A program made the position numbers and the translations under genes. The notes beneath the pieces were generated by a model. That model saw nothing but the letters and a program-made list of their open reading frames with translations. It searched no databases and was not told where the DNA came from. A stretch of 64,000 bases of DNA from Hymenopellis radicata (Eukaryota; Basidiomycota; Agaricomycetes; Agaricales; Physalacriaceae). Below are positions 5,467 through 62,705 of this stretch, piece by piece (positions within the stretch are counted from its first letter, which is position 1; every line of letters starts with the position of its first letter). The stretch spans positions 1-64,000 of the forward strand of contig JADNRX010000300.1 in NCBI GenBank assembly GCA_015501595.1. The letters run 5' to 3'.

Positions 5467-6555
5467 TAGAGACCTCAACGACTCAAATCCGGATCAGATC
5501 CGCAATCCATCACACGAGTACCCGTGGCCGAAAGCGCCGATCCGTGATCCTTATATGATCCGACCCGCCACGAATCGACAGATCAGATGGATCGGATCAC
5601 CGAGATCGCCGAGCGAGTCGAGTACTCCAGTAAACTCGAGTACACCATCACCCAAATCTATTCATGCGCGATGAGTATCCCCGAGCAATGACACGGGGAC
5701 ACTCAGTCGTGCATGATGCAGACTGGAGAGTGGTGGTGAGAGTGGATGAGGAGGTGGTGGTGGTGGAGATGGTGATGGTGGTGGTGGAGGTGGTAGTGTG
5801 GGTAGTGGAGGTGGTGGAGGTGGTGGTGTGGGTGGTGGAGGTGGTGGTGTGGGTGGTGGAGGTGGTGGTGTGGGTGGTGGAGGTGGTGGAGGTGGTGATG
5901 GTCTATGTCATCTGGCACTCACCGTGTCACTGCGCCGCCACCCCATCCGTCATCCGTCCATCGCATCCGTCCATCTCCATCGCATCTGTCCATCGTCGTC
6001 TTCACCCCATCCCCGCCGCCGTCCCATCTCCATCGTCGTCATCCGGGAATCATCCAAGTCGACGCCGTCATGGAAGTCGTCTGTTGCTGCTGTCATAATG
6101 ACAGCAGCGGGTCCGGCATGAAGCCAAGACTACGATCCACACCCGAGAGGCCCCTGACAATCGTCAGAGAGGCAGTGGCGACGACCGTCGCGCACTGGGT
6201 GGTTGTGGTGGGTGGTGGTGGTACGAGGAAGACAGAGAAACCATCTGATCGCAGGCTTACGCGGCCTCTCGGCGATTGCCGGATCATGAGAATTAAGCAG
6301 AAATTCACGCGAATGGCTTGTTTGGGCGATGTAAGGGCCCGTTTAACTTTATAAAAATTTGTAAATTAAGCTTAAATATATAGCTAAATATTGCCAAGTC
6401 AACGCGAGTACTCGCGCCTCCAGAGGCTGATCCGCGATCCATATGTGATCTGACCCGTCACGGGTCTACAGATCAAACAGATCGGATCTCCGAGATGCCC
6501 GAGCGGATCGAGTATGGGTAAACCCGCGTGATCCACTAACTCATTGAGGTCTCTA
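5467..6555. mobile_element. Non-autonomous hAT-type element, TIR TAGAGACCTCAACGA, GATCCG-word subtype
   Basis: 1089 bp, ends TAGAGACCTCAACGACTC and its inverse, with target duplication GCGAAAAT on both sides (5459-5466, 6556-6563). Subterminal DNA is packed with GATCCG/CGGATC and CGAGTACTCG words. The interior carries the shared core in reverse orientation: GC box CCCCGAGCAATGACACGGGG near 5680, a GGTGGTGGA tract at 5745-5900, hairpin at 6086-6108, GGCTTACGCGG at about 6259, and GGGCCCGTTTAAC at about 6338. The tract holds open frames coding Val/Gly or His runs; these are simple-sequence artefacts. No transposase is present. Confidence 0.9.
5745..5900. repeat. GGT-rich trinucleotide tract (GGTGGTGGA/GGTGTG)
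   Basis: An imperfect tract of GGTGGTGGA and GGTGGTGTG units within the 5467-6555 element. Equivalent tracts sit at the same place in its relatives at 26409-27498 and 58686-59691, so it is part of the element rather than a local slip. It produces meaningless open frames on both strands. Confidence 0.85.
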
Positions 6556-6600
6556 GCGAAAATGCCTAAAACAGCATTGGGGACCTAGATATATATGGAC

Positions 6601-6859
6601 TACTGTACCATTTCGACCTTGTCTTCATGGGGTGTTATGCGTTATGCATACTCTTCACAGATGTTACTCTTTATTCAGGGTTCAATTTCCTTATATGGGC
6701 AGGCGGGAGCAGCGGCAATAGCCGCCACAGTAAAAAAATTCCTTTTTGGGCCTTACCTGGGGCCAGATTTTGGCCGTTATGCATTATGGTACCCTCAACT
6801 CTTCATTTCACAGGCCTCTGTTATGCATTATGCGAAGATAAGGTCGAAATAGTACAGTA
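6601..6859. mobile_element. TA-flanked MITE, ends TACTGTACCATTTCGACC
   Basis: 259 bp with inverted ends TACTGTACCATTTCGACCTT and its complement AAGGTCGAAATAGTACAGTA. It sits in the right arm of the foldback element at a place where the other arm is uninterrupted. TA at both ends is consistent with Tc1/mariner-type TA target duplication. No coding capacity. Confidence 0.8.
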
Positions 6860-6906
6860 TTGGGTTGGCAACACTCTCTCTACTACTAATAGAGATTTAT
6901 TAGCAC

Positions 6907-7291
6907 TACTGTCGTATTTCGACCATAGGTTCACGTCACAGGTCACGAGCCCAAAAAATGAATCTGTTACATAAGCAGGTCACTAGTTTTTTTTGGCTGT
7001 GAACCTGCCCCAAATTAGTCACAAATCGGACTTTTGCTCTCAAATTGAGCTTGGTGGCAGTTTTTATAGGATTTTTCTCCTTTTTGGTGTATTGTAGGTC
7101 TAGAATAGCACATTTTTCTCTAATAATACTGAGATTCAGCCTAAAACCTGTGAAATAACCTTGCCATTAAAAAATTTAGTTAACTTATTTTCAGTGGGTC
7201 ACAGTGGTATGTCTGCTGTGAACATCCCACCAAACAAGTTCACGAGGTCACAGGTCACACCTTGTGAACCTACGGTCGAAATACTACAGTA
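6907..7291. mobile_element. TA-flanked MITE, ends TACTGTCGTATTTCGACC (385-bp type)
   Basis: 385 bp. The same sequence, nearly identical over its whole length, recurs at 9416-9800 and 47299-47684. Ends are TACTGTCGTATTTCGACC and GGTCGAAATACTACAGTA. The interior has GGTCACGAGCCC and a T-rich core; no gene. Three near-identical copies in one window point to recent amplification. Confidence 0.88.
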
Positions 7292-7337
7292 TAAACGATG
7301 TATCAAAGTTGTAGGTCCCCAGAATAGCAGGATCCTG

Positions 7338-7594: not shown

Positions 7595-8037
7595 TTATAT
7601 CCCTGGTGGCCCTGGAGCAGTCATCCTGATATATCTCTTGAACTCTTCCATAGAATGACATGAAATTGATATCACATATCGTTCTATAGTCCCTCTAATA
7701 GGTATCAAAGTCTCAAGGCTATAGGCTATGTATAAGGCCTACTAGAAGTGTGACGCATTTTTGCACCCCTAATATCTCCCCCAATTTTGAAGCTATCGCA
7801 AAATGGGTTGTACCATTGGATTCCCAGCCTGAAAAACTATAAAAAAGGTTTTCATCACCCCATCAGCTATCCCCTACAGCAGCATTCATTATTGCCCACC
7901 CCATCCAGCCTAGTGCTGACCTAATCAAAAAATGCGCCACAAAGGCCATCCCCCATCCCCCCAGAGCCCATCCATCAATCTATCAATCCCAGGAACATTC
8001 CCCACATCTCATCAAAATCTAATCTATCCATCAGTAG

Positions 8038-9262
8038 TAGTGAATAGCATGGGTCGGGTATAGGTGCTCATGAGCACTCCCGACCCGAACCCGACGCCAT
8101 ACCCGCACCCGACGCTCGGGTACGGGTTACCCGCGATTTTACCCTCGGGTATGAGACGGGTGGCGGGTGTACCGTACCCGTGAGGAAAGAAGAGGTTTCG
8201 TGCCTGCCGCCGACCCCCGAGCAATTGCGCGGGGTTAGCGACGTGCACGAGACACATTTGAGGAGCCCCGGCTACTTGCGAGAGCAAGAACCGTCGCTGA
8301 ACAAAGTGCAGAAGTGGGGAGACGTGAGGTGGGTGCAAGGGAAGAAATGGCAGTGAGGGGATGGTGGTCACGAGGAGATGGGGTGTGGAGGAGATGGCGG
8401 TCGCGAAGCAGACAAAAATAGACTGCACGACGGAAAGGAGAAAAGAAAAGAAAAGAGTAGTAGATGCACCTATGAGGCTGGATGCGTACGCGACGCCATC
8501 CAGCTCAATATCCAACATTGTTATGACGGCTTTCAGCCTATCTGCACCCTCCAGCAAGGTCGCTGCCTCGTCCCGAGGGCCTGCACGGTACGGGTCGTGG
8601 TAGAAACGGCGCCGTCGCAAAAGCGGACGGACACCGTTATGCGTATCCAGAGGCAGCGGGTCGGCGCATAGCCAAACCCCTGCAAGCCATCCAGAAGTAT
8701 CACTGCCTCGCTTGTGAGGGCTTACGCGCCAAGTGTCGTTGTCGAATTGGTGTCGTCGTAAAGACGAACACCGAGATGCGCCCCGGAATGTATCCGAGGG
8801 CGCAGTGGCCAGCGCGAAGCCGAACCACGCCAGAAAAGCAGAAGAAGAGCAAGAAAACAAGTAGAATAAGCCTCAGAATAAGTTCTGGAGCCGACGAGCA
8901 CGACATGAACGTCGTGCTGTGGTGGTAAGATGGAAAGCACTGAGATCTGCACGGATCGATCGTTATCCGGCAACTGCCGGGGCGATCAGCCAGCTCGGCG
9001 ATCACAGAAATTCTTTCACCACATCGTTTTCTCGACGACGTTGGGCTCGTTTGAGCCCAAATAAATTTGATAAAATTAATGAAATGTGGTTAGAAAATAT
9101 GGAGGTCACTTGTGGGCATGACAAATCATGTTGATCTCTAGCTCACGGGTGGACACGGGTTGCCGGGTTCCCAACGGGTACTCGGACCGATACCCGACCC
9201 CTACCCGACACATCACCCGACCCGGACCCAGACCGGGTAACCCGTACCCGCGCTATTCACTA
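8038..9262. mobile_element. Non-autonomous hAT element with the same TIR as the 50.16-58.26 kb transposon
   Basis: 1225 bp, ends TAGTGAATAGCATGGGTCGG and its inverse, with target duplication ATCAGTAG on both sides (8030-8037, 9263-9270). Subtermini are made of CGGGTACCCG/ACCCGAC words. Inside are the GC box CCCCCGAGCAATTGCGCGGG (about 8215), the GGCTTACGCG box (about 8720) and GGGCTCGTTTGAGCCC (about 9047) of the shared core. An open minus-strand frame at 8024-8860 runs out through the TIR and shows no domain, so I treat it as fortuitous. Matching ends and duplication length make the 8.1-kb hAT its likely mobiliser. Confidence 0.88.
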
Positions 9263-16141: not shown

Positions 16142-16531
16142 CACTTTGCAGGGGGCAAATAAAAGCAACTGCTAAATAGATAGCTAAATATATAGATAAA
16201 TTTATAATTTATCAAATAAATTACATTCTAATAAATTATATATTTTTCCTTTGCTAAATTAAGTGCATCAAACTTGTATTTCCTACTTGAACATAATAAT
16301 ATTTATATTCATCGAAATTTTAGCCCAAAAAATATTTTTTGTATATTTTAAATACAAATTTCAGAAAATATAAAAACTCTAAACTGTAAGTAGCCAAAAA
16401 TCTGGTCAATTTTTAGATTTAGACTTAAATTTTGTATATTGTAATAATTCCCTTTATGATCTGATAAAGAAATAACTAAATTTTGCCTTTGACCTCTGTG
16501 AAATAATAAATTTAGCGCTAGAAAAAATAAA

Positions 16532-16655
16532 TGGGCGCTCAGAGGATGCCCAGAGGGCACTTAGAGGGCACTTAGAGGGCACTTAGAGGGCACTCAGAGG
16601 GCACTCAGAGGATGTACTAAGGGCACTTAAAGGACATACTAAGGGCATTGTAAGG
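16532..16655. repeat. Left subterminal array of 11-bp AGAGGGCACTT repeats
   Basis: About ten tandem, partly degenerate copies of AGAGGGCACTT/AGAGGGCACTC and AAGGGCACTTA just inside the left TIR of the 16142-18296 element. Such arrays are the usual transposase-binding sites of CACTA elements. Confidence 0.85.
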
Positions 16656-17754
16656 GTGCTATGTGGGCCTTGATTGGCCCTCCTCATTACATTCTGTCCC
16701 GAACCAATCTGTGTTCTCGACATAAAACCCCTCAAAAGCAATGATCATTTCATCATATCCACACATACATACTCATACCTCCTATACCGCTTCCTCTCCG
16801 GCATATCCATTCAATCGGTACTCCCGTCGACTCCATCGAGAAGCCAGAAAAGGGTGGTATTGGCGCTCTGTCAAAGGTGTTTTCCCCCGCCGCCTCATTT
16901 TGGGACGAGAGTGGACCTGTATCCTCCGCCTATGAACGAACGGCTTGGGAAATCGAACAAAACGGAGCGCTTGTCGAAGTCACTCAGGCTGCTCCAAGTC
17001 GCAAACGTCGCTCGAACTACGCTGCTTGAAACCGTTGATCCAGCGCTAATCGATAATCCCTCCCCCACAAATTCGCTCGCCTGGCTGTGCAATTTCGCGT
17101 TTCGCATTTGGAATCAAGCCCTTCTGCAACGTGCTGTACGACTCGCACACGCGTATGCCCTGCGTAAGGCGGTTTGTTTGTTTGTTTGAGCGGGGGTGTC
17201 GGTAACCTGGTCTCAGCTCCGTCGGTCTCTTCACAACCGCCCTACTTGAAATGTAAGGCTGAGGATATAGTAGTGAACCATCAAGACAACCGTACAGAGA
17301 ACATGTGGTAAAGCCCAGCCCAGTGTCCCGAGATTTTGGCAGTTAGGAGGCCTTCGCTCAGCCACGAGCACAGCGGCGAAGGTTACTGCTCCCTTTTTGA
17401 GGATGCGGTGTGATCACTGGGATGGTGGCCGAGACAATCTATTCGGTGTGTTTTGAGTCCCTTCAAGTCGAATGCCGAGGACCGTAGGACGATGTTTGGA
17501 TAAGAGTCCGCCGTTTGGCGGGAACATTCCAGATGTCGCTTGCTATCGCGGGCTCGAGAAAGCTGTTTCGCATCTCTGTGGCCGCTTGGTGGGGGTGGCA
17601 GCAATGTCTCAACTTTTAACTGTTCGGACCGGGAGCACAGGTTCTTGCAATACCGCCAGCTGGGCAGCAATCTTGATGTTCTCCATGGGGGCGGTTGGAG
17701 CGTGATATAGGCAGCATATATGTCATCAGCGCGACTTGACTTACCCAGGCCCTC

Positions 17755-17905
17755 ACAGTGCCCTCAGTATGCTCTCTGAGTGTCCCTTGAGTACCCTTTA
17801 AGTGTCCTCTGAGTACCCTCTGAGCACCCTCTAAGTGCCCTCTGAGCACCCTCTAAGTGCCCTCTGAGCACCCTCTGAGCGCCCTCTGACACCCTCTGAG
17901 CACCC
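17755..17905. repeat. Right subterminal array, inverse of the left 11-bp array
   Basis: About twelve tandem copies of AAGTGCCCTCT/GAGCACCCTCT, the reverse complement of the array at 16532-16655, just inside the right TIR. The mirror placement supports a role in end recognition. Confidence 0.85.
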
Positions 17906-18296
17906 ATTTATTTTTTCTAGCGCTAAATTTTTTATTTAACTGAGGTCAAAGACAAAATTTAGTTATCTCTTTATCAGATCATAAAGGGAATTATTACAAT
18001 ATACAAAATTTAAGTCTAAATCTAAAAATTAACCAGATTTTTGGCTACTTACAGTTTAGAGTTTTTATATTTTCGAAAATTTGTATTTAAAATATACAAA
18101 AAATATATTTTGGTCTAAAATTTTGATGAATGTAAATATCATTATGTTCAAGTAGGAAATACAAGTTTGATGCACTTAATTTAGCAAAGGAAAAATATAT
18201 AATTTATTAGAATGTAATTTATTTGATAAATTATAAATTTATCTATATATTTAGCTATCTATTTAGCAGTTGCTTTTATTTGCCCCCTGCAAAGTG

Positions 18297-19904
18297 ATAG
18301 TGACTGGTTCAAGCCCTTTGCCTCTGAACTCGACTGGAGGGTTGTGCAGTGGATGGTTGAGCAAGGTATCGGGCACAACACATTTAATGAATTTCTGAAG
18401 ATTCTAGGAGTACGTGCTCTTTGTTTTTGTTCTCGTTCATATCTCATCATTGTGGAAGGTTAAAGACAAGCTTGAGCTGTCCTACAGCAACACTGTGGGT
18501 CTCCACAAAGTTGTCGACTCCATCCCTCGCCACGCTGGCAAATGGAAGGTCAAACATCTCTCTTTTCCCGACCGCCCCGATGAGAAGTTTATGCTTCACC
18601 ACCGTGACATCCTTGAGTCAATTCGCTCCCTCTGGGGTGATCCTGAGCTTGCCGAGCATCTTGTTTACAAGCCCAGTACCCTGTTCACTGACGAACGTGA
18701 AGATCACCGCTAGAGACCTCAACGAGTCCGACGCGAGTCAGACTCGCGACTCGCGACGTGAGTACTCACGTCCAAAAAGGGCCTGCTCAGACTCGCATCG
18801 CACTCGACTCGCAATGACTCGTGAGTATCTGCGAGTCCACTCGCGAGTCATCGCCTCGAGTCCGAGTCACCTCGGATACTCGTGAGTACTCGTGAGTCCG
18901 TACACCCAGTATTCATGCACAGCGAGCATCCCCGGGCAATGGCACGGGGACAGTCAGCTGGGTATGATGGTTGGGTGCAGGTGGTGAGAGGATGGTAGGG
19001 ATAAGGTGGTGGTGCTGGAGATGGTGTGGCGGAGGAGGGGGAAGTGGTAGTAGCGGAGCAGCTCACCCCAATGTGTCCTCGCCTCATCATCCCTCTCCTC
19101 CTCCTCATCTCTACATCCTTCTCCTCCTCCGCCACATTTCCATCATCATCGTTGGCAACAGCCATTGTAGTGGTTGCCGTCGTTGATGCCATCGTCGACC
19201 TCAGCATGTCGACCTCTGCTGCTCACAGCAGCAGCTCCGGCGTGTCCTGGTGCGCGTGTCCTGGTATGTGTGTCCCGATGCGCGTATCCCAGTGCGCATG
19301 TCCTGGTCAACGTTGTTCTCCTAGTCGACGTCGTTGTCCAGCTTGAGGTCGGGTCCGTGTGAGTGGTGCTGTCATGTCCGTGCTGCTGTCTTAAAGACAG
19401 CAGCAGCAGGCCCGGCACAAAGCCGAGGCCAGAAACACACCCTACAGCTGGCTGACAATCGTCAGCGCAGCGGGGACGACAATCATCGCTCCCCAGGTGG
19501 TCGTGGTGATGGTGAGATGTCAAGAGATACCACTCGATCAGACGCTTATGCATCGCTTCGGGACTCGGCCTGAGTCGCCGGATCTAGCAAAATTATTGCG
19601 TATAGCTCGTTTGAGCCACACCAGGGTCCGTTTGAGTTGCAAAAAATTTGTAAATTAAGATAAAATACATACCTAAATATTTGCAAGTCATCGTGTGATG
19701 ACTCGTGGTCCGCAGATGGATACTCAGACCCGCGACCAGACTCGCGAGTACGTGACTCGCGAGTCACACGAGTGCGAACACCGAGGTGCCCGAGGCGAGT
19801 CGAGTCACCAGATGACTCGGTGACTCGGTGACTCGTTGAGGTCTCTAATCACCGCCTTTACAATGAGATGTGGACGGGAAAGTGGTGAAAGTTCATTCAG
19901 GTAA
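18297..19904 (+). pseudogene. Plavaka-type transposase, second remnant
   Basis: From 18297 the frame reads SDWFKPFASELDWRVVQWMVEQG, then FNEFLKILG, an intron (about 18411-18459), and VKDKLELSYSNTVGLHKVVDSIP, FPDRPDEKFMLHHRDILESI and LVYKPSTLFTDE to 18710. After removal of the 18711-19847 insertion it continues RLYNEMWTGKW. These are characteristic of the Plavaka N-terminal third (PFASExDWRVAxW, LGLSYxNTxxLHQ, LYNEMWTGKWW). The second Trp of the normal KWW is TGA, a nonsense change. The DDE catalytic region is not found downstream, where the foldback relative at 19925 begins, so only about a third of the enzyme remains. Confidence 0.78.
18711..19847. mobile_element. Non-autonomous hAT-type element, TIR TAGAGACCTCAACGAGT, ACTCGCGAGT-word subtype
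   Basis: 1137 bp with target duplication ATCACCGC on both sides (18703-18710, 19848-19855), inserted in the Plavaka pseudogene. TIRs match those of 5467-6555, but the subterminal words are ACTCGCGAGTC rather than GATCCG. The shared core is present: GC box at about 18928, hairpin 19382-19404, CTTATGCA box at about 19538, and GGGTCCGTTTGAG at about 19625. Its closest relative is 55019-56050. Confidence 0.92.
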
Positions 19905-26408: not shown

Positions 26409-27498
26409 TAGAGACCTCAACGAGTCAACGGATCACACGGGTTTACCCATACTCGATCCGCTCGGGCATCTCGGAGATCCGATCCGTTTGATCCGTAGAC
26501 CCGTGATGGGTCGGATCACACTTGGATCGCGGATCAGGCTCTGGAGGCGTGAGTACTCGTCGCGAGTACTCGTGTTGACCCGTGAATATTTAGGTATATA
26601 TTTAAACTTAATTTACAAATTTTTTCGAAGTTAAACGGGCCCATGCGTCGCCCAGAACAGACGTGCACGAGTATTTCTCGCGATCCAGTGCTTCGGGCCG
26701 AGTCCCGAGAGGACGCGTAAGCCTCTGATCGGTGACTCGATCTCTAGGCTCTCTCTCTGGTACCACCACCACCACCACCCAGTGCGCGACGGTCGTCGCC
26801 ACTGCCTCTCTGACGATTGTCAGGGGGCCTCTGGGGTGTGCATTTTGGTCTTGGCTCTGTGCCGGACCCGCTGCTGCTGTCTATGTGACGGCAGCAGAGG
26901 CGGACGACTTCACGGCGCCGACTTTGGACGACGACGACTACTACTCTTGGATGACGATGACGACGGGGATGGGGTGAAGATGGGGATGGGGCGACCACGA
27001 GGATGGAGTGGTAATGGATGGCGCGAGGATGATGCGTTGACGAGGTGAGTGCGCGTGATATGGAGTCGACGACGACGACGACGACTCACACCACCACCAT
27101 CACCTACACCACCACCATCACCTACACCACCACCATCACCCACACCACCACCATCACCCACACTACTGCCACCCACACCACCACCACCCACACCACCACC
27201 ACCCACTGTCATCATCTCCACCACCACTCCCACCACCCCAGTCTGCATCATGCACGACTGAGTGTCCCCGTGCCATTGCCCGGGGATGCTCGTCGCGCAT
27301 GAATGGACTTGAGTGTGTGGAATACTCGAGTTTACTCGAGTACTCGACCCGCTCGGCGATCTCGGCGATCCGACTCGTCTTGATCCGTAATCTGTGGCGG
27401 GTCGGATCAGATAAGGATCGTGGATCAGCAGTTTTGGCGACGGATACTCGCGTGGTGGATCACGGATCTGACCCGGGTTTGAGTCGTTGAGGTCTCTA
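26409..27498. mobile_element. Non-autonomous hAT-type element, TIR TAGAGACCTCAACGAGT, GATCCG-word subtype
   Basis: 1090 bp with target duplication TGGTGGGC on both sides (26401-26408, 27499-27506). It carries the shared core in forward orientation: AAGTTAAACGGGCCC at about 26629, CGCGTAAGCCTC at about 26714, an imperfect CTGCTGCTGTC hairpin at about 26870, a CACCAC tract at 27065-27235 and the GC box CCCCGTGCCATTGCCCGGGG at about 27264. Closest relatives are 5467-6555 and 58686-59691. Confidence 0.92.
27065..27235. repeat. CACCACCAT-type trinucleotide tract in the 26409-27498 element
   Basis: An imperfect (CACCAC/CATCAC) tract at the same relative position as those at 5745-5900 and 59310-59425, in complementary orientation. 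Open frames across it code Thr or Val/Gly runs and are not genes. Confidence 0.85.
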
Positions 27499-30588: not shown

Positions 30589-31722
30589 TAGAGATTACAA
30601 GTCCGGTTGGGTCCAGTTGCGGCGCCCAAATTTGGAAGGACCGGCAACCGCAACCGGTTGCCCAACCCGACTTTTCGTGTCAACCGTGGACCGCAACCGG
30701 TCCTTGTCGAGGACCGGTTGCAACCGCGGTCTTTCACCGGTCCACAACCGGTCGCGACTGGTTGAAACCGACACCGACCGCACACTCGCAGCATCATTTA
30801 TGCCCGTTGGTGGCCCCCGAGCAATTGCGCAGGGGCTACCCAACGTGCATAAGCCACGGGGTGAGCGGTGGGGTGAAGGGGATGGTGATGACAATGGAGG
30901 AGGAGGAGGAGGTGGTCGTGTTGTCGTAGTCGTCGTCGTTGTTGACGCGTCATCATCGACGCGTCCATCCTCAGATCCATCACCTGCTGGGCTCCATCCT
31001 CTTCCGCATCTCCGCGTGCCGTTGGTGTTGGTGTTGCTATGGAGACGACTTTAAGTCGTCTCCTGGTACATCCACGCTGACTCAAAGTCGAGCGCGGGTC
31101 ATCCTCCTGCTCCACCATCTCCTCCTGCTCCTCCTCCTGCTCCTGATCCTCCTCCATCTCCTCCTGGTCTTGCTATGAATATGCTGCCCGTTGGCGGGGC
31201 TTACGCTGTTCGCAGGCTGCCCGTTGCGGGCTTACGCGTCCTGGAGACGACTCAGTCGTCTCCTATCGATGCCGACTCAGAGTCGAGCGCCAGCAGCGTC
31301 AACACCGACTTAGAGTCGAGCGCGACTCGCGTCGTTGCCGACTTGCAGTCGAGCAACGTCGTGGTGGTGGGAGGAAGTGAGAGAGCCAACCCGATCACAC
31401 GCTTACGCATATGTTCGGATCTCGGCCCGAGTCGCCGGATCTGATCATATATTCGCGAATGCCTCGTTTAGGCCACGCAAGGGCCCGTTTTAGCTCGTAA
31501 AAATTTGTAAATTCATCTAAAATATATATGTACATTATCCGGTTGAAACCGGTCTCAACCGGTTGGGTGGCGGTCCTACAAAAAATAGCCAGACGTTCGG
31601 ACCGTCAACTGCAACCGGTTGCAACCGGCAACCGGTCCTTCTAAAACCGGTCCAAAATCGGTTGCGGTCCGGTTGGGTCCGTCGGTCCTACCCGGTCCTA
31701 CCAACCGGACTTGTAAACTCTA
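30589..31722. mobile_element. Non-autonomous hAT-type element, TIR TAGAG-TTACAAGTCCGG, CCGGTTGC-word family
   Basis: 1134 bp, left end TAGAGATTACAAGTCCGG and right end CCGGACTTGTAAACTCTA, with target duplication GATATTCC (30581-30588, 31723-31730). Subtermini are packed with CAACCGGTTG words. The interior carries the shared core: GC box CCCCCGAGCAATTGCGCAGG (about 30815), hairpin 31041-31063, two GGCTTACGC boxes (about 31198, 31225) and a GCTTACGCA box (31402), four CGACTNNGAGTCGAGC words (31079-31355), and GGGCCCGTTTTAG (about 31483). A truncated relative is at 62322-62700. Confidence 0.92.
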
Positions 31723-50122: not shown

Positions 50123-50499
50123 CAGCCAGCTTTGTTGCCTTTTCCGGCTTTTTCGCTTGTAGTGAATAGCGCGGGTCGGGTTCGGGTCAGCGGACAGTTA
50201 CCCGAACCCGACCCTCTGAACCACCCGAACCCGCTATGTCGGGTTCGGGTTTTGCACCGGGTTACCCTCGGGTATGGCAAGGGTAACGGATAGCCCGATA
50301 CCCTACTTACAATCTAAGTATTTGACACAATATGAATATATTGCTATGTACCAAAAGTATCCAGCATGTACAATAATCGAACAGATCTATATACTAGTAA
50401 CATACGATGAGAAAATCATAAAAAGGAACTGTTACTCCTTCGAAATGGTGTCAAAGCCCTCGGGCATCAAGATGTCCCCATCCTCGTCTCCATCCTCTT

Positions 50500-51609
50500 T
50501 AGACCTGGGCAAGAGTGTCTGGTGTTTAAGTGTGCACCCGGGTGCACTCGGCGCTCACACCTGGGTGTCGAGTGTTTGGCAGTGCCGGATAGTGTGTTTG
50601 CACGGGTGGGTACCCGAGTGCGGGTGTTCGGCTTTGGGCGGCGAGTATCCGTGCCCAAACACCCGTGTAAACACTCGGGTATTAATATATATATTTATAG
50701 TGAATTTACATATTTTTTCCCAAGTTAAACGGGGCCTTGTGCCCCATAAATGAGGCATATACACTGATTTTTCCAGATCCGGCGACTCGGGCCGAGTGCC
50801 GAAGCGACGCGTAAGCATGCGATCGGCTAGTTTTCTTTTCTCTCACCAACTACCACCACTTCCGACGTCCCGTCGCTCGACTTTGAGTCGGCGATGAAGA
50901 CACCGGCGCTCGACTCTGAGTCGGCACCGTATAAATGGAGAACGACTTTACGTCGTCTCCAAGGAAACACCGCCGGTCGGACGCGTAAGCCCTCGCAACC
51001 GAGGCAGCAGGACTATTGACGCTCGACTTAGAGTCGGCATCTGCATACTTCAAGGAGGAGACGCCGCCCGCCACGCTGAACAGCGTGCTTGAAGAGCGGG
51101 GGCGGCGGATATGGGCTGCCTCATCGTCTGCAGGCGACGCGGCAGAGGTACGTTTTTATTTTTTCTTCTTGCTGTTGGCGACGTCTGCGGACGTTGTCAA
51201 ATCTTTTATTGTACTAACTCTGTATTCTAGGTTTCTATTGCACGGGTAAGCCCTCCAATGAGGCGCCATACCACCGGACCATCTCCATCTACCTCCCATC
51301 CTCCACACCTATCGCGTCATCTGAATCATGCACCGCCGATGCTCCTCCCGCAATTGCTGGAGGATGCCGACGTGGCATGAAGTGACCGCGAGTTGAGGTG
51401 GAGGATGTGGAGGATTCGGGTGTACACGGGTACACCCGTCACCATACACGGGTGGCGACACACTCGTGTGTGCGGAACACCCGCGAATGGGTGCCGCACT
51501 CGAGTGCCGCACTCGGGTGTCACTCGAGTGCGGGTGTCCAGCTCTGAGTCGCGAATGACCCGTCCCGCGAGTGCGAGTGCACCCGGGTGGGCACTCGTGC
51601 CCAGGTCTA
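50500..51609. mobile_element. Non-autonomous hAT-type element, TIR TAGACCTGGGC, CACCCGGGTG-word family
   Basis: 1110 bp, ends TAGACCTGGGC/GCCCAGGTCTA with target duplication ATCCTCTT (50492-50499, 51610-51617). Subtermini are CACTCGGGTG/CACCCGAGTG words. Shared core: AAGTTAAACGGGGCC (about 50720), CGCGTAAGC (50800, 50980), three GCTCGACTNNGAGTCGGC words (50875-51035), hairpin 50937-50960, and a CCGCAATTGCTGGAGG box (about 51348). It truncates the hAT transposase C-terminus. Confidence 0.92.
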
Positions 51610-52935
51610 ATCCTCTTCATGTAGCGCGGGCATCTTAGTAACGTCTCCAATATCACGAGGATCAATCATATTGGCGCAACTCCAAGCACCGAGGCACAGG
51701 AGAGTGTGAGCAGTCTGGGCCGAGAGGCGATTACGAATGTGGGTGAGGAGGATCCGACCTTGGCTGAAAAGTCCCTCAATGCCAACCGATGTCGCTGCCA
51801 AGAATTATCAGCAAGGTAGGATAGACTTAAGGGCAGACTCACGAGGAATTGACAGGTAGTCTAATGCTATGCGCGAGAGAACGGGATAGTCAGCATGATG
51901 CTTGTGCCACCAACCCATGACGTCCTTGACGTTCTCTCGCGGAGCGTCAAGATAACGATCCAATTCGCCGGCGGGGTTGTTGACTTGCTTCGCGGGCTGG
52001 GGCTCGTTGACGTCGTCATCAGAGAACATGTTTGATTTAGACTGTTTTGTCGTCGATGGCTATTCGTGATTGGATGTCACCGTGAGCGAATGGTAGATAG
52101 CACTGGAAATGATGAACATACCTGCATCTGGGAAGGAGCCTCCGCTGCAGCATGCATACCCACCATGTACGCTGCCAGATACTCCCCAAAGACACGTTGA
52201 ATAAGTGCATCGGCGTCGGTCTTCCATTCATAAGGCCAGTTGTGCTCATCGAAGTACCTGGTCTTGTGTTTGGGGTGCATAACTGAGAAATGGTTAGAAT
52301 AGCATGAACAACTCAAGAAAAGCACGTACCTAGGGCAATATGATACACCTCGGACTCGTCGGATAGACTGTAGTACTTGTTGAGAGTATCTTTCGCAACA
52401 AGTACGGCAGCCTTCATCGGCGAGGCAAGTGTAATGTCCGGCTCGTCGCCGCGCTTCCGAACGACAGCAGTCGCAAGCATAGCATCGAGTTTGTCCATAG
52501 CTGGAATTACCGTGGTGAGGTTGGTGTCGTCACGAGAGAAGTATGTTGTGGCATCTTTGAAAGCCTGCAAGACATGAGACGACGGGACAAAAGGAATGCA
52601 ACAAGTAAATAACTTACTCCCAGAACCTCGCAAAGGTTCTCAAGGGCCATCCACTCTCCAGCAATCATTGAGTAGTCCAGCAGCGCATCCTCGCCGGTAA
52701 TGTCCCGAATGACTCGTTTGTATTGAATGGCTGTCATTAGCATGTCGTAAGTTGAGTTCCAGCGAGTTGATACGTCGCGCGGTAGGACTTTAGGCGGTAG
52801 GCGGTGCTCTTCAACGAGCTTCTTCCATCGAGGCAGGAGAATGGTCGTCGAGTTAATAATCTTGAAGAAAATGGTACGAATCTAACAAGACATAAGTACG
52901 GCGCTTAACTAAATGCGCTGATGACAGCGTGAGAT

Positions 52936-53343
52936 TAGAGCATGCCACGAGTCTAAACCCGGGTCTGGCGGGTCGAGTTTGCCTGAGTTTGCATATCTGA
53001 AGTCCGGACTTGCAACTTGTCTCAAACTCGCGAGTCGCAGGTCTAAAACTCGCGAGTTTTTGATGAGTTTTGAGCTATAACTCACTCATATCCCCTTCAA
53101 CTGAGGTTAAACTAGTGCAAACATCATCTCTACAGCCTATTGCAACTCTGTTGGATCATATTCATATGTATAACACAGTTTATATGCATAATATTATATC
53201 TTAACTGACTACCGGAACCTGCACAAGTACTTGCAGAATCCTCCAACCTCAAACCTGCGACTTGCGCGAACCCGGGTCGCGAGTCGCGAGTCGCAGGTTA
53301 CCTGCGAGTTACCTGCGCTGGCCGAAACTCGTGGCATGCTCTA
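52936..53343. mobile_element. Complete MITE, TIR TAGAGCATGCCACGAGT, in a transposase intron
   Basis: 408 bp with target duplication CGTGAGAT (52928-52935, 53344-53351). It lies between the RCFAH exon and the TRWNS exon of the hAT transposase, in an intron, so it may be tolerated by splicing. Opposite orientation to the copy at 23181-23596 but closely similar throughout. Confidence 0.93.
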
Positions 53344-55018
53344 CGTGAGATTAAGAACTCACCTTCCGTAATGCAGAACTAACGAGTCTTGTGTCTGTCC
53401 GGAACTTCTCTTTTTGCTCTGCTGTCATGTCGGTAAAGGCGTCGTAGAGGTCATTGTCAGGATCATCCTGCTCCGCTGAGCCACCTGCCTCCAACTCGCG
53501 CAGCCGTGTCAGAATCTCCTCTGTGTCGATTGAATCCTCTTTATCAACAGCAGCTGCAGTAGCCGCTGCCTCGTCGTCATCCTCGTTACCATCTTTGCCC
53601 TTGGATTTCTTCGCCAGTTGATTGAACAAACACAGCATACTCTTCGCCACCAAGTTCACGATGTGAGCGAAGCAGCGAGTCCGGGCGCGGGGACCACCAA
53701 AGTTGGGTAAACCGTCGACAAGGCATTCCATCATAACATCGTTGGGAGCAGCATTATCGCAGGTAACGCTCAAAACCTTGGAAGTATTCTGAGCTAACTC
53801 GATCATAGACCATAGTCAACGAACGTACCTTCTCCTCAAGACCGAATTCCTCAAGAACCGTTTTCGTCAACACCGCAAGAGCCTCGCCGGTGTGCGACTG
53901 CAAAAACCATTATTAGCAGCGATAGATGGAGACTTTGGTAAGTCATACCTCTGGCAATTCATAGAAGTCGAGTACTGTGCTGACACACTGTCCATCTTCC
54001 TCCCAGTGGGCCTTATATGCAATGAAGGCTTTATGATTCGGTGAGGTCCAGCCATCCAAAACGATATGAACATGACTATTCAGGCTCTGTAGTACTGTGA
54101 GTTCTCGCTAGCTTTCAGAGTATGGTGATAACTTACCTTAAATTTCTTTGCCAGCCGACATCGCGTCTTCGCGAAAAGAATCTTCGTATCGCGGGAAACA
54201 GTGGTCAGATGAGGGATGTACATTCCGGGGCAGCCAGTCTTCATCAGCTTTTTGAAGCCGCGGTCCGCAACGATGTTGAAAGGGCGGAAGTTTTCAGAGC
54301 ACCAGCGGGCGCATTCAGCTCTATATCGGCCTTGGTGAGTAGCTCGATTATCAACTCAATTAATCACTCATCGTGTTTCAGCATTACTGAAGGGCATCGT
54401 CGCATAGATCTCCTTTCCCTTCGCAATAATACCCTGCAGCATTCCGGTAAGAACACCTTGCCTCTTCTTCCCTGCCTTTTTGACCATGTCACGTGTGGCC
54501 TTTAGATCACCGCTCTCGAACGCGGCCTTCACCGCCTCAATGCCGAAGCACTTTTCAGCATGGAGGTGAAGACCGTGACCGGAAGACTTATCCTTCGTCA
54601 TCAGGTTATGATAGACGTTCTTCCCGCACATCTCGCATTTCCATGCTTCGTGTGGGACGTCCTTCGCCGTGAGCGCATTCCTGTCAACGATCTTGAAATC
54701 GGCGGCATAAAAGCCATAGACGGTAGATCGTAAGTTTCCAGTTTTCTGAATAGCTGCAAGCCGTATTAACAGACTATAGATATGATGGATACGAAAGACG
54801 TACGCGGGTTATCGCTCTCTTCATCAGCGATGTTGGCGGCCTTGGGAAGCTCCGAGAGATTGATGGTGTGAGTACTCTTCTTCTTTTTGGATGCCCGCTT
54901 CGTCTTCTTCTTGGGCTTGGTGGCGGCTCGTTCTTTGCCTTGTGAAACTGTCAGCACATCGCTGACAATATAAGTTTAGTCTTCACCTTTTTCCGTGGGC
55001 TTGGAGGCACGGCCAGAA

Positions 55019-56050
55019 TAGAGACCTCAACGAGTCCAATGCGAGTCAGACTCGCGAGTCAGACTCGCGACTCGCGACGTGAGTACTCGCGTCAAAACAA
55101 GCCAAACTCAGACTCGCGTCGGACTCGACTCGCGATGACTCATGAGTCATCGCGAGTCTACTCGCGAGTCATTACCACCGAGTCCGAGTCATCTCGGATA
55201 CTCGTGAGTACTTACGAGTCCAACACCTCCCAGTATTCATGCTCAGCGAGCATCCCCGGGCAATGGCACGGGGACAGTCAGCTGGGCATGAGAATGGGGT
55301 GGAGGTGATGGTAGAAATGGTAGTGGGGGTGGAGGTGATGGTGGTAGGAAGAGGTGGTGGTGGTGAGAAGGTGGTGGTGAAGGTGGCTGTCGTCGTCATC
55401 AACGCGTTGAACGCATCAATACATCATTGGCTCCTCAACCTCCTCATCATCTCCTCCTCCTGCTCTTCCTCCTGCTCCTCCTATCCTCCACCGCATCATC
55501 CTCACATTACCGTTGTCCTCGCGTTATTGTGGTCGTCCTAGTCCAAGTCGTCGTCCTGGTCGTAGTTGTCGTCGTATCGTCCTATGCTGCTGTCATAAAG
55601 ACAGCAGCAGTATGCCCGGCACATAGCCAAGGCCATAAATATACACCAAATGCTGCCTGACAATCGTCAGAGCGGCAGGAGCGACAATCGTCACATCCTG
55701 GGTGGTCGTGGTGGTGGGAGGATACAAGAAAGACGACCCGATCAGACGCTTACGCGTCCTCTCGGATCTCGGCCCGGATCGCCGGATTAGGCAGGATAAT
55801 CGCGCACGTCTCTTTCTCGAGACGTTGTAGACCGTTTGCTCTGGAAAAATTTTGTAAATTTAGCTAAAATATATCTCTAAATATTTGCGAGTCATTGTGT
55901 GATGACTCGCGCCCCACAGAGCGATACTCAGACTCGTACCCAGACTCGCGAGTATGTGACTCACGAGTCACACGAGTGCGAACACCGAGGTGCCGAGGTG
56001 AGTCGAGTCACCAGATGACTCGGTGACTCGGTGACTCGTTGAGGTCTCTA
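55019..56050. mobile_element. Non-autonomous hAT-type element, TIR TAGAGACCTCAACGAGT, ACTCGCGAGT-word subtype
   Basis: 1032 bp, target duplication GGCCAGAA (55011-55018, 56051-56058), within the Lys-rich N-terminal exon of the hAT transposase. Core: GC box CCCCGGGCAATGGCACGGGG at about 55253, hairpin 55585-55607, GCTTACGCG at about 55749. Sister of 18711-19847. Confidence 0.93.
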
Positions 56051-57029
56051 GGCCAGAATGACGAGGTTCAGGTTTGGGAGAGCCGGACGGGGTACGTTCC
56101 TTGTCTGCAGTCGTATATGAGTATGATGACTGACTTTTCCTGTACTAAACGACGTACCCTTGCCTTTGCCCTTAGACTTCGGATTGGACTGACGAGTGCC
56201 GCCGCACTTTTCTACCCTGATGGGCTTACCAGTGCGGCCGCGCTGAGGATGATCGTCAAGGGCATCTTCTTTATTGTCTTCCTGCTCGGATGACAACGAC
56301 TCGGATGGATTGTCGACCTCCTCAGCATATTCGTCGGAGTCGGATGACACGTCAACAACGGAGCTGCCGCAGGAGGCATGAGAGGTGGTGGGCTGAGGAA
56401 TGTTGTTGTCGTCGTCGTCGATATCCATGTGTGTGGAGTGGTCGAAGTGAAAGGAGCCTAGAACTGAGTTAGATACATAAGGTAAGAATCATGAAGCAAC
56501 ATACTCGCGCCCTCGGATGACATTGATCGCATACTAGGTGCATCGTCAGGGATGTCTTGGTCGACAGATGGTGAACGAGGGGAAGCATAAGATGATGAGG
56601 ACCGGTTACGAGGAGACAGGGATCGACGGATGAAGTCCTTCATACGGCGGACCTGCTTCTTGACAGACTCCTTAAATTGACCAGCCGTTCAAGTTAGTTT
56701 AGAGGTAGTAGAGCCTACGGGAGACTGCGAGGCGCGTCGCTTGGATGCCCGCCTGTCGTCGTCGGCCATAACAGTAGTATATATATAGTGACAATGGACA
56801 GTTGAATGCAAGAGGGAATGATGGGATGTTGAGAGTCTGAAGTTGGTTTGGTCGAGCTTTTAGTCTAGTCAATTGCAAATATTTGAGTCATGAGATTGTC
56901 TCAGGTTGACAGTAGTAACAGAATCTGAATTTAGGTATCCTGGGGGACTAAGTCGTGTGCCACGAAGCAATTAGAAGGATTGGGTGCTGCCAAGGGTAAC
57001 GGGTAGGGGCCGGGTCCCGGACCGTGAAC

Positions 57030-58183
57030 CCCAGTGAAAACAGCGTCTGTTTATATCTGTAGTTTACTGTTTTTTTTGCACATCTGTAAAAGCGACCGAT
57101 ATACAGATTTTTCTCGATTTTATTCTGTTTTTTTATGTTTCGGAAAACAGAACGATACAGCATACTACCCTATTCCCGTCTGTTCTTAGCGCTTCTCAGA
57201 TTGGTTCGAAACATAAAAAAACACAATAAAACAGATGTATTTGCACACTAGATCTAGCAGTAATAGTAGGGTGCTTCCTGCCTGCGTAGCGGCACCGCCG
57301 GTCGTGGCACCATATCGCCAGTGCATGCTATCAAAAGCCTCTTCATACGCGCTGCTGCCACGGACACCCATATCGTCCAGGTACACTATTGCGACAATGT
57401 ACGGAAACATCGCTGCAATCATGGTCTCTCGTTGTCGTCATTGGAACTGGCCGGGTCGCAAAGTCTTGCAGGACCACTCACCAACATGTGAGCCACTGCG
57501 AGTGCTGTGCGCAATGAGATCGTGTAGGGTGGTGATGATAATCGAGGTCGCCCTTGTCCGCCGCCGTCACCTCAAAGGTTGCGTTCAGGGGGTCCCGCTT
57601 GGCGCCGGCTCTACGGGTCATCTTAATGGCAGCGCCTGGCACGCTCGTCGTTGATGGTCGTCATCGACAAACCTGGTATCCGGGTGGTTAGTCGTCTCAA
57701 AGGTTGCCCACGGTATGATCCTCACCTGAAGCGACGACGTAGGCATGTAGGTGGCCATAAGGAGCCCAACACTTCCAGGCTGGCGTGGTTATCGTAATAC
57801 TGGCAGCATGCAATGTGGCAGTGGTGCCATGATGGTGGTGGTCGAAGAGAAAGGAACAAGTGAGGATGATGGTGGTCAGAGGGAAAGGAACGAGGGACGA
57901 TGATGTCACCGATGCGGGACTCTGAATGGACTTCTAAACTTTGGCTTTCTGAAGATTTGCAAGTTGGATTTCAAAGATTGCAACTTGGCTTTTCAAAGAT
58001 TTCGACTTCTCGACTTTACTTTTTGGAAATCTTACTTTGAGTTTCCGATTTCAAAAGTTGAGAAGCACAAAATTAACGAAATATGAGTTCATTCAACGAC
58101 ATTTACAGAATACTACAGATATCCGCAGATCGCGCTCAGAACAACAGTAAAATACAGATATAAACAGACGCCGTTTTCACTGG
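57030..58183. mobile_element. Element with ends CCAGTGAAAACAGCG and CAGATATAAACAGACG words
   Basis: The ends CCAGTGAAAACAGCGTCTG and CAGACGCCGTTTTCACTGG are inverted, and the next bases (TATATCTGTA, AACAGTAAA) also mirror. The flanks CCGTGAAC and GCGTGAAC form an 8-bp duplication with one difference. CAGTG ends with 8-bp duplication fit hAT. It lies in the 5' flank of the transposase gene, inside the larger hAT. Frames inside carry no recognisable domain. Confidence 0.78.
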
Positions 58184-58370
58184 GCGTGAACCCGAACCCG
58201 ACCCACTAATATACCCGACGCTGACCCGGACCAGATGACCCGAACCCGGGCTATTCACTATTCGCTTGTGACAAGAGAAAAAGTTCACAAGCTCACCGAC
58301 CAGATTCAAAAAGTACTCGACAAGACCAAAAGTTCACAAGAGGAGCTGTATAAGAAACTCTATTCTGCTA

Positions 58371-58685: not shown

Positions 58686-59691
58686 TAGAGACCTCAACGA
58701 GTCAGCGGATCACGCGGGTTTACCCATACTCGATCCGCTCGGGCATCTCGGAGATCCGATCCGTTTGATCCGTAGACCCGTGGCGGGTCGGATCAGTAAT
58801 GGATCACGGATCGGCCTCTGGAGGCACGAGTACTCGTCTCGTCAATATTTACATATATATTTAATGCTAATTTACAAATTTTTTCAAAGTTAAACGGGGC
58901 CTTGAGTCACCCAAACGAGCTGTACGCATGAATTTCCTAGGAATTCTCACGATCCGGCGATTGCCGAGAGGCCGCGTAAGCCTCTGATCGATAACTCGAT
59001 CTCTCTCATCTTTCTCTCCCACCACCACGATCACCACCCAGCGAGCGACGATTGTCGCCGCTGCCACTCTGACGACTGTCAGGTGGCCTCTGGGGTGAGG
59101 ATTGTGCCCCGGCTGAGTGCTGGGCTTGCTGCTGTCTCTATGACAGCAGCAATGGACGACTTCACGGCGCCGACTCTGGACGAGCACGACCACGACTCCC
59201 GGACAATGACAACGACGGGGATGGAGTGAAGACGTGGATGGAGTGATGATGGATGGCGGGAGGATGACGCGTTGACACGGTGAGTGGTGCGCTGATGGAG
59301 CCGACAACGACGACTCACACCACCACCATCACCCACACCACCACTACCTACACCACTACCACTACCACCACCATCACCATCTACCATCACTCTTGCCTCC
59401 ACACCACCACCATGACCTCCTCCTCTGCTATCACCACCCTCAGTCTGCATCATGCACGACTGAGTGTCCCCGTGCCATTGCCCGGGGATACTCGTCGGGC
59501 ATGAATAGATTTGGGTGCGTGGAATACTCGAGTAAACTCGAGTACTCGACCCGCTCGGCGATCTCGGCGATCCGATCCGTCGATTCGTGGCGGGTCGGAT
59601 CACATAAGGATCACGGATCGGCACTTTCGGCCACGGGTACTCGCGTGATGGATCGCGGATCTGATCCGGATTTGAGTCGTTGAGGTCTCTA
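58686..59691. mobile_element. Non-autonomous hAT-type element, TIR TAGAGACCTCAACGAGT, GATCCG-word subtype
   Basis: 1006 bp with target duplication GATATGAT (58678-58685, 59692-59699). Core in forward orientation: AAGTTAAACGGGGCC (about 58885), GCGTAAGCCTC (about 58975), hairpin 59128-59150, CACCAC tract 59310-59425, GC box CCCCGTGCCATTGCCCGGGG (about 59467). Confidence 0.93.
59310..59425. repeat. CACCACCAT-type tract in the 58686-59691 element
   Basis: Imperfect CACCAC/CATCAC/CACTAC tract, equivalent in position to 27065-27235. Not coding. Confidence 0.8.
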
Positions 59692-59699
59692 GATATGAT

Positions 59700-60140: not shown

Positions 60141-60414
60141 AGAGTCCACGTCATAGAGCCATGTGCATGTTCACTTTGGATTTCTTCCAAGTCCACCACA
60201 GGCCGCCTTAGCCTCTTTCCATACCCAATCTTACCGCAGGCCTAAGCACCGGCTCACCAGCAGCTTGGATGACAATCTCAGTCCACGGTACTAGCGAGGG
60301 AGGCCGACAAGAGCTAGTGCGGGAAACGATGAGCTGGACGACAACGGCAGCTAGCCAATGAGGATACATCGACAATGGCGATATGCAGCTGTTAAATTAT
60401 TTCATATTCGAGAA

Positions 60415-60912
60415 CTAACAATAATCACAGCTCATTTGTGCATACGGCTTCTATCGGATGGGTGTATTCCTTCTAGATGAGAAGGACATCTTCTCGTAGC
60501 CAAAGGTTGGCACTTCCATCCTAAAAGTGATGGATATCAGACGCAAACTCTCCGACAATGCCTGGGCATGCATTCACACAGCGGCGGGCACCTCTCCAGA
60601 TCCCCCAGTCACCGATGAGTTTGACAGCAGAGTTCTCGACATCAATGCTATTCTAGGCGCAGCCGGGTGAGCTCTCATTCGAATATTATATTCCTGTCAG
60701 CAGTCTTGGCCCACCTGTTGACGATATCGGCAACTTTGGCGACGACGACGACGACACCACAACTGTCTAAAAGTACCATCAAACTTCCTTGCATGGAGCA
60801 TCGTAACATGTTTTCCTTTACTCACTCGTTCTTAGCCCATCTCAGTTGCAGTCCCTTCATATTTGTCTACGCTACTTCTTTCGCCCGCCGTGTGTACTGT
60901 AGATCATTTTAA
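60415..60912 (+). other. Hypothetical coding remnant
   Basis: A plus frame reads CAYGFYRMGVFLLDEKDIFS, then a TAG, then VMDIRRKLSDNAWACIHTAA and FDSRVLDINAILGAAG before a GTGAGC donor at about 60669. Acceptor-like CACAG at about 60430 precedes it. It looks like one exon of a protein with one nonsense codon; no family recognised. A second frame at 60667-60912 has a hydrophobic start but no support. Confidence 0.35.
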
Positions 60913-61198
60913 TCAACTCAAAATTTAATCTGAAAATCAGTGTGATTCCGAAATTGCTTGTCAGCTTGTAAACTTTCTTAACTTGTCAGACTCGAACAAA
61001 TACAACTTTATGACATTTTGGACATGGCCTGTACACTTGTGGCTTTCTCGCTTTATTGTAGTGTACAAGCACGAGAAAGTGTGAGAAAGTTTACTGTCGA
61101 ACTTGCTGATGATGTTTCCTGCTAACCTTGTAAATGTCGCACCTGGTAGATTCCAGGGGTACCTGTTATGTTCGTGCAGCTCAGCACTTGCAGGGGTA

Positions 61199-61358
61199 TG
61201 TTGGAATATCAAGTGCATCACTGCACTCAATACCAGTCCTTCTGATGCCGGCGAACTCCACTGGTACCATCACCACCGACTCGCCACCATTCCCTCCATA
61301 GTTTGTCATGACTCCGATTGATATTTATAGGACATACCTGTAGAGTACAAAAGCCCTG
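61199..61358. repeat. LTR-like repeat beginning TGTTGGAATATCAAG, copy 2
   Basis: About 160 bp matching 46821-46985 from TGTTGGAATATCAAG to GTAGAGTACAAAAGCCC, with GATATTTATAGGACATACC. The MITE at 61359 cuts it. No internal retrotransposon region adjoins, so it may be part of a solo LTR. Confidence 0.5.
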
Positions 61359-62186
61359 TACTGTACTATTACACGCAAGTCTTCGCATAACGGGTAACGG
61401 GGACATGTGAAATGAAGAGTTCGTGCTATTATAACACGTAACAGCCAAAATTGGGCCTCAAGTAAGGCCCAAAAAGGAAATTTTTTAAGGCAGCAGCTGT
61501 TATTGCCGCTAGTGTTGCCGCAGTTCAGCTAGGTCTGACTCGGTCCTGTTTCTGCCGGTTTAGGTAAGCCCTTGAAGCTGAACGAAGCCGAACCGTTAAA
61601 CTACAGTTCGAACCAAGGTTCGAACCTGGTTCCAGTTGACATTTTTGACACTTCTGCAACCGCATGTAGTGGTGATGCACATTGTACTATTTACTTGTAA
61701 CTACCTCAGACAATCATAGCAAACACTCAGAAGCAATATTAGCTGGTTGTCAAGCTGTTGTGAGTTAGGCTTTGGCTCGGACTTCTCCGAGCCTACCGGA
61801 TCAGTCCGCACACCTCTTCGTTTTCAGCATTTCCTGCCCTTCTCCCCATCTCAGATGAAGCTAAATAATGTCCCAGGTTTGTATTATTCACTGTACAATT
61901 GGATCCAATCACCAAAATACTCATATACACTTAATCATTTTTTGGACGCCAAACCGGGTTCGAACCCCGTCCGAACCGATTGGAACCGAAACCGCGAGTT
62001 CGGTTTTTGCTGGTTTTTTCCTGTCCAGTTTGTCGGTTTAATGGTTCGAAGCCGAACCGTGGCAACACTAATTGCCGCTCCCACCTGCCCATATAAGGAA
62101 ATTGGACTCTGAATGAAGAGCAATGTCTGTGAAGAGTATGCGTAATGAGTAACACCCCATGAAGACTAAGTTGTAATAGTACAATA
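61359..62186. mobile_element. TA-flanked MITE, TACTGTACTATTACACGC type, third copy, with nested insertion
   Basis: The outer parts (61359-61509 and 62071-62186) match 15013-15271 and 20077-20334. The right end reads ACAATA instead of ACAGTA. The middle is occupied by the 61510-62070 element, so the original MITE was about 260 bp. Confidence 0.85.
61510..62070. mobile_element. Non-autonomous hAT-type element, TIR TAGTGTTGCC, GGTTCGAACC-word family
   Basis: 561 bp, ends TAGTGTTGCC/GGCAACACTA with target duplication ATTGCCGC (61502-61509, 62071-62078), nested in the MITE. Subtermini carry GGTTCGAACC/CCGAACCG words. No coding region; the shared core is not evident in this shorter family. Confidence 0.9.
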
Positions 62187-62321
62187 TGTAGTCAGTAGAA
62201 TCCAGTTTCGAATTTGCAGGTTTCCGCACCTTTACAGTCCCACTAAGTTCTAACTCACCTGTTCATCGACGCATCACTCTTATTTTCTCACACTAACTTT
62301 TCATGATTAGTCCTCTATTTG

Positions 62322-62705
62322 TAGAGTTTACAAGTCCAGTTGTATGAACTAGGTAGAACTGGTGGACCCAACTGAACTGCACCTGATCTTAGACTGGTTA
62401 TCGAAGAACCTGTTGCGGTTGACAGTTTGAGCATCTGAGCATTTTTTTCAGAACCAGTTATAACCGGTTGAGATCAGTTTCAACTGGATAATGTAGATAG
62501 ATATTTTATATGAATTTACCAAATTTTTCTGAGTCAAACGGGCCCTTGTGTAGCCCAAAAAGAGCCATACACAACTATCTGATCAGATCTAGTAACTTGG
62601 GCCAAGATCTGACTGCACGCGTAAGTGTGCGATTAGAGCATCTCTCTTGGCTCCTTCCATCATCACGACATTGCTCGACTGCAAGTTGGCAATAATACAA
62701 TTTTG
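62322..62705. mobile_element. Truncated element, TAGAGTTTACAAGTCC family
   Basis: Begins TAGAGTTTACAAGTCCAGTT, like the 30589-31722 family, with decayed AACCGGTTGA words, AGTCAAACGGGCCCTTG (about 62533), CACGCGTAAGTGTGCG (about 62617) and GCTCGACTGCAAGTTGGC (about 62672). The rest of the core and the right TIR are missing. The end coordinate is approximate. Confidence 0.75.

Follow-up and report, generated by a model that had tools for sequence, protein, structure and literature searches.

Can the interior of a transposon pass from one pair of ends to another? The question is raised by a 64,000-nucleotide stretch of Hymenopellis radicata DNA (positions 1 to 64,000 of contig JADNRX010000300.1; hereafter the window), in which a reading of the sequence alone had listed nine hAT-type elements with unlike terminal inverted repeats (TIRs) around one internal core, as if ends had been swapped around a conserved cassette. 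The listed TIR is present at 9/9 starts. The element is complete at eight of them (1006-1225 bp), its 3' TIR matching and its 8-bp target site duplication (TSD) perfect in 8/8, while the ninth, at 62322, is a remnant (Table 1); 8-bp TSDs are those of the hAT superfamily, and the TTAA target of piggyBac was not found at them. We propose that these elements probably consist of two separable modules, the ends and a cassette, and that the cassette, a predicted structured RNA, has been passed between end types.

The 75.5-Mb assembly (1405 contigs, the window being contig C631) was searched by similarity to the window elements or to the core, and 54 distinct complete elements were picked on a TSD mismatch of at most 1. 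They carry five end types, under labels of our own: P (TAGAGACCTC, 23 elements), S (TAGTGArTAGC, 11), K (TAGAGATCGGCACG, 9), D (TAGACCTGGGC, 6) and T (TAGAGwTTACAAGT, 5). An element is named by its ends and locus (S_L062 has S ends and lies at locus L062), and its strand is the direction from a TATA-like block to a boundary stem-loop, H1. The K ends, absent from the sequence-only reading, were met in the genome search alone: through its core (positions 160-1039 of the element), the element at 8038 found matches of ~70-74% elsewhere, whereas the ends stayed unmatched. Since discovery relied on similarity to the window elements or the core, five end types is a lower bound. The elements share TIRs and high copy number with miniature inverted-repeat transposable elements (MITEs), but they measure 974-1517 bp whereas MITEs are usually <500 bp, as given in excerpts of PMC2872659; hence we call them non-autonomous hAT elements. 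Near-identical pairs (99.7% for K, 99.5% for P, 99.0% for S) carry different TSDs and thus represent separate, recent insertions.

A genome-wide search with the core alone, which the sequence-only reading had suggested, was run as a sequence pattern search and returned 286 places of P/T/D type and 254 of S/K type against 0 in reversed controls, the core being carried by at least five end types. Among the first 20 listed P/T/D places, 19 lay within elements, or what remains of them, whose features were those of P (14), T (3) or D (2), so that the core was not seen free in those places; the remaining one, L069, was left unclassified. Together with L090, it joins a P-like core to another subterminal word (AACCCA) and could represent a sixth end type, which is not counted here; no TIR/TSD pair was found at these two loci. 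L093, a K variant whose TIRs have diverged and whose TSD has one mismatch, stands outside the 54. L084, considered as a P core with foreign ends, was rejected, being a P element interrupted by an insertion that has a T-like end. In L092 (positions 1-801, C1262:31600-32400), the TATA side of a P-type core is duplicated head to head, in inverted orientation. The core is not present in every hAT-type element, as three elements of 408-561 bp with TIR and TSD (23181-23596, 52936-53343 and 61510-62070) gave no core match. The first two, one of which (52936-53343) lies within the S transposase gene described below, form a short core-less family with TIR TAGAGCATGCCACG and perfect TSDs, and 23181-23596 shows weak matches (64%) to K ends; the third (561 bp) has TIR TAGTGTTGCCGCAG and TSD ATTGCCGC.

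In a matrix of Z scores comparing ends with core across the five end types, the interior is more conserved between families than the TIRs, a pattern like that of the coral CMITEs discussed below, which confirms that one internal core lies under unlike ends; it also places T ends on a D-like core in T_L078. Trees were built for 49/54 elements (K_L052, K_L057, S_L054, S_L056 and T_L063 had no block-2 match and were left out). The block-2 tree (160 columns from the conserved block on the TATA side) splits S ends between the S/K clade and, via S_L062, the P/T/D clade, and forcing them together was rejected by the approximately unbiased (AU) test (p-AU 6.7e-16). Block 1 is the boundary hairpin, and in its tree, built on 76 columns, S ends stand in several places and their union was likewise rejected (p-AU 4.2e-7); both tests were run post hoc, once S_L062 had already stood out. 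S_L058 and S_L060 lie inside a supported P2 group (100/99) in block 1 and inside the S/K clade in block 2. T_L078 joins D in block 1 (96/94), in a tree short of columns whose program warned of long branches, that of T_L078 included. The histories of ends and core are therefore not fully congruent. The TIR labels nevertheless required only 6 changes on the block-2 tree against a shuffled mean of 24.2, a strong clustering which indicates that swaps are rare relative to copying.

Windowed painting of two elements located the junctions. S_L062 is of S type over ~1-140, of P2/T type over ~150-990 (a few interior windows being best for P1 or D) and of S type again from ~1000, its last ~125 bp being nearly identical to S_L058 and S_L055. 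Beyond its TATA-side border, the next ~30 bp remain P2-like, which suggests as donor a P2-type element that had its outer ends replaced. S_L058 begins with S sequence resembling the transposase-bearing locus L014 (~1-140), continues with a P2-type H1 (~150-225) and then enters an S/K core.

S ends also exist apart from the core. The 8.1-kb S-ended element that spans 50160-58260 contains a transposase gene on the minus strand (~51.6-54.9 kb, PF05699 above cut-off at 51844-51966) and is broken by several nested elements, two of the nine listed ones among them; the D element sits at the end of the gene. Outside its nested elements, no core match was found. The 2.2 kb beyond the nested P element (56051-58260) look partly coding on the minus strand and perhaps hold the exons for the N terminus of the transposase. 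When one transposase piece was searched against proteins, 7 relatives were returned. At L014, a second S-ended transposase locus (PF05699 above cut-off), the first 145 bp, counted from the TIR, match S_L060 at 93.8%, and the match goes no further. TIRs and subterminal repeats of S type are thus common to the core-bearing elements and to elements with a hAT transposase (50160-58260, L014). At L034, a hAT transposase (PF05699, E 9.9e-08) adjoins a P-like end, with a P-like start and subterminal words that are similar, not identical (66% over 163 bp); P ends were the only match of this locus, of which one end was covered, and no core match was found. Among the 30/70 PF05699 places surveyed, each as a ~3-kb locus, no element was identified that combines a transposase with ends of T, D or K type. 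K-element pieces, core included, lie within ~1.5 kb of hAT transposase matches at L010, L029 and L030 and are provisionally taken as separate elements. In addition, a 278-amino-acid (aa) open reading frame (ORF) on the minus strand (8024-8860) extends through one end of the element at 8038.

Altogether, the placement of S ends on two core clades, the mosaic junctions and the core-less S transposase loci support the swap of ends around a conserved cassette that the sequence-only reading had put forward. We consider end exchange established beyond reasonable doubt for S ends and likely for T_L078.

What, then, is the cassette? From the TATA-like block toward H1, it holds a TATA-like motif, the boxes AAACGG(G)CC and GATCCGGCGA/CGCGTAAGC (in cores of P/T/D type), successive hairpins and, last, H1. 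Structure was counted in 51/54 elements (K_L052, K_L057 and T_L063 left out). A TATA-like motif occurs in the first 50 nt of 47/51 cores (strict form in 31), compared to 143/1278 window 50-mers (strict form on either strand in 49), a background unmatched for AT content. In the H1 stem, 98.5% of cells are paired and 8/16 pairs are changed on both sides in at least 1 of 25 sequences; double-change cells number 42 against 10.1 in shuffles, which ignore relatedness, and at most 11 in slid controls, while extra pair types in H1 were not above shuffles (93 of 500). The S/K core (14 sequences) has 85 predicted pairs, 97.8% paired versus 96.4 in shuffles, with 8 pairs changed on both sides (shuffled 3.0) and 17 double-change cells (shuffled 4.8, best slid 5), and a T/D alignment gave 47 pairs, 8 of them with double changes, a figure without control. 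H1 and the S/K core hence show covarying helices, as expected of a structured non-coding RNA.

Moreover, a hairpin with a single bulged base on its 5' side recurs 118 times in the 51 cores, against 11.0 expected from shuffles, with 63 distinct sequences and U as the bulge in 86/118; 3'-side bulges number 35 versus 15.0 expected. Counted per kb, 5'-bulged hairpins number 2.99 in the core, 0.83 in the ends and 0.51 in the rest of the window. In the U-CGAC type, upper stems CGAC are combined with 12 different lower arms, each complementary, and the GCTCGACTNNGAGTCGGC word that had been noticed from the sequence is explained as the stem-bulge-stem of this hairpin.

Folding and ORFs were inspected in 14/51 cores. 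Minimum free energy z scores range from -3.7 to -10.4 on the sense strand and from -3.0 to -9.0 on the opposite one; since both strands fold, the strand of the cassette is set only by the TATA-like box. The longest sense ORFs are 38-135 aa (antisense up to 159 aa), and no frame common to families was seen by eye, D types sharing one of 41-45 aa. Conservation was compared without S_L062, S_L058, S_L060 and pairs whose middle is >97% identical. In 4/5 families, the exception being T, members have kept H1 about as well as they have kept the subterminal ends, while in 5/5 the core middle shows lower conservation than the terminal 30 bp; this suggests constraint on parts of the core and not pure hitch-hiking. 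A general intron was rejected, its signal being at chance over the 51 cores, and the intron-like stretch of the D-type cassette is a lead for D and T_L078 only. Rfam gave 0 matches at gathering level in the window and, at five loci, only sub-threshold microRNA-model matches; these were rejected, all falling in L088 (best E 3e-4, 36.8 bits versus a cut-off of 85), where they lie on the strand opposite to the cassette and among GGTGG and CCACC tracts.

We propose a model in which each end (~130-250 bp) comprises a TIR and family-specific subterminal repeats recognised by a given hAT transposase, the different ends deriving from different hAT families. The cassette (0.6-1.1 kb) would be one homologous, apparently non-coding, hairpin-rich unit, bordered by the covarying stem-loop H1 on one side and the TATA-like AT-rich block on the other. 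In the ectopic repair of a double-strand excision gap, an end can come from one template and the interior from another. Passage between end types would most likely occur via template switching or gene conversion in such repair after excision or, alternatively, via recombination among nested or adjacent copies, and cassette segments would also recombine among themselves. The cassette would be transcribed from the TATA side to H1 as a structured RNA, and this RNA, or a protein on its bulged-U hairpins, could favour the spread or survival of the elements. A bolder version, which we advance only tentatively, makes of the cassette a structured-RNA gene, selfish or domesticated, that would have a promoter of its own, bind protein through its bulged-U hairpins, be closed at its 3' boundary by a stem-loop and spread on the ends of whichever hAT family is active, as a DNA-transposon counterpart of the short interspersed nuclear elements (SINEs) with conserved domains; such an RNA may act by recruiting a protein of the host or of a transposon, or by shielding against one.

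Other explanations overlap with this model, and our confidences in them do not sum to one. The main rival accepts the exchange and takes the cassette for a DNA module (a transposition enhancer or protein-binding palindromes) or for filler spread by gene conversion, with no RNA function. The folding of both strands, the chance level of the intron signal and the palindromic words that also fill hAT subterminal regions lean toward it and weigh against an RNA. Yet the helices stay paired while their sequence changes, a one-base bulge, mostly U, separates stems whose lower arms vary but remain complementary, which DNA recognition would not need, and a TATA-like box stands at one border; we favour a structured RNA and rate the DNA module as rather unlikely. 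That same box, and the intron-like stretch common to several D types and T_L078, could instead point away from our model to a leftover promoter or untranslated region of an extinct autonomous hAT element whose coding part was deleted, the elements being ordinary deletion derivatives, later recombined. This origin appears improbable, given that no cassette was found in the window S element nor in the parts covered of L014 and L034, that sense frames in the 14/51 cores inspected are short, with none seen by eye to be shared by the families, and that covarying stems across five end families would not be expected from it.

Descent without exchange is the remaining reading: one ancestral element would have diversified, its ends evolving fast with their transposases while the core stayed. 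All TIRs start with TAG, the subterminal words of P, D and K are partly alike and the TIR labels cluster strongly, three points in favour of descent, the last of which also speaks against free exchange. However, the AU tests on both core blocks, the discordant placement of S_L058 and S_L060, the sharp junctions in S_L062 and S_L058, the T ends on a D-like core in T_L078 and the two transposase-bearing loci with S ends and no core make it highly improbable. It is already rejected for S ends, and part of the P/D/K divergence may have arisen by descent.

Table 1. Elements and cassette features located in the window
Feature	Position	Strand	Details
Non-autonomous hAT element	5467..6555	-	P ends (TAGAGACCTC); TSD GCGAAAAT; cassette 5659-6398
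S-ended element	8038..9262	-	ends TAGTGAATAGC; TSD ATCAGTAG; S/K-type cassette 8195-9103
P-ended element, P2 subtype	18711..19847	-	GCGAGTC subterminal words; TSD ATCACCGC; cassette 18910-19687
P-ended element	26409..27498	+	TSD TGGTGGGC; cassette 26579-27305
T-ended element	30589..31722	-	TAGAGwTTACAAGT, ACCGGTT subterminal words; TSD GATATTCC; cassette 30795-31544
hAT element with S ends and transposase gene	50160..58260		TSD TTCGCTTG; 8.1 kb, broken by nested elements
D-ended element	50500..51609	+	TAGACCTGGGC, CACCCGGGTG words; TSD ATCCTCTT; cassette 50672-51383
TATA-like box and conserved block 2 of D element	50672..50825	+	AATTTACA, AAACGGGGCC, GATCCGGCGA, CGCGTAAGC
Intron-like stretch, D-type cassette	51148..51230	+	GTACGT ... 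TACTAAC ... TAG; similar only in several D types and T_L078
H1 boundary stem-loop of D element	51309..51383	+	coordinates of the aligned stretch; stem CATGC/GCATG, inner CCTCC/GGAGG around CGCAATTGCT
P-ended element, P2 subtype	55019..56050	-	TSD GGCCAGAA; cassette 55234-55891
P-ended element	58686..59691	+	TSD GATATGAT; cassette 58838-59507
Truncated T-ended remnant	62322..62713	+	keeps cassette block 2 (62483-62635)

Three further repeats were observed in the window. A remnant at 15515-15689 matches the 3' end of K elements (CAAGTACTTG words). An inverted-repeat element at 16521-17917 has tandem AGAGGGCACTT arrays at both ends and is flanked on both sides by TAGCGCTA, a self-complementary word that therefore possibly belongs to the palindrome itself. 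Inverted repeats at 37939-40724, in which 116-bp units are duplicated, enclose a 253-bp tandem array whose long open frames are preserved.

Non-autonomous DNA transposons are usually classed by their ends, which are assumed to define the lineage, their interiors being held dispensable. With ends and interior of partly separate histories, families based on ends give a wrong picture of ancestry, and by changing ends a non-autonomous lineage could last longer than any single transposase. Among the matches listed in open-licence literature (titles and starts of abstracts), we found no hAT case and no structured-RNA cassette with exchanged DNA-transposon ends. The maize Ac/Ds elements are themselves hAT. 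They resemble the elements described here in their short TIRs, subterminal repeats and heterogeneous non-autonomous members, whereas their pattern is the opposite one, with ends shared and interiors unlike, according to parts of PMC3260210. Different TIRs on one interior are already in print for the CMITEs of the coral Acropora, MITE families that have in common a conserved interior whose origin is unknown; in one member, the internal region was that of another family (excerpts of PMC2872659). CMITEs are piggyBac elements (TTAA) of ~100 bp with a 75-bp core, unlike the hAT elements of 1-1.5 kb found here, and those excerpts describe neither structured RNA nor junctions nor mosaic trees, in contrast to the covarying hairpins and defined mosaics of our elements. 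A shared module is likewise in print for SINEs with highly conserved domains (CORE, V, Deu), where "module exchange" is one proposed reason, and the V domain was carried into MER6 MITEs (passages of PMC6887750). The likeness lies in a central module under unlike outer parts that can enter a DNA transposon; SINEs, however, are retroposons with heads and tails (PMC6887750, same passages), while here cut-and-paste ends of different hAT families are exchanged on both sides. Should the cassette prove to be an RNA gene, DNA transposons would here be carrying a mobile RNA, and the reason for the conservation of the coral MITE interior and of the SINE central domains would become testable.

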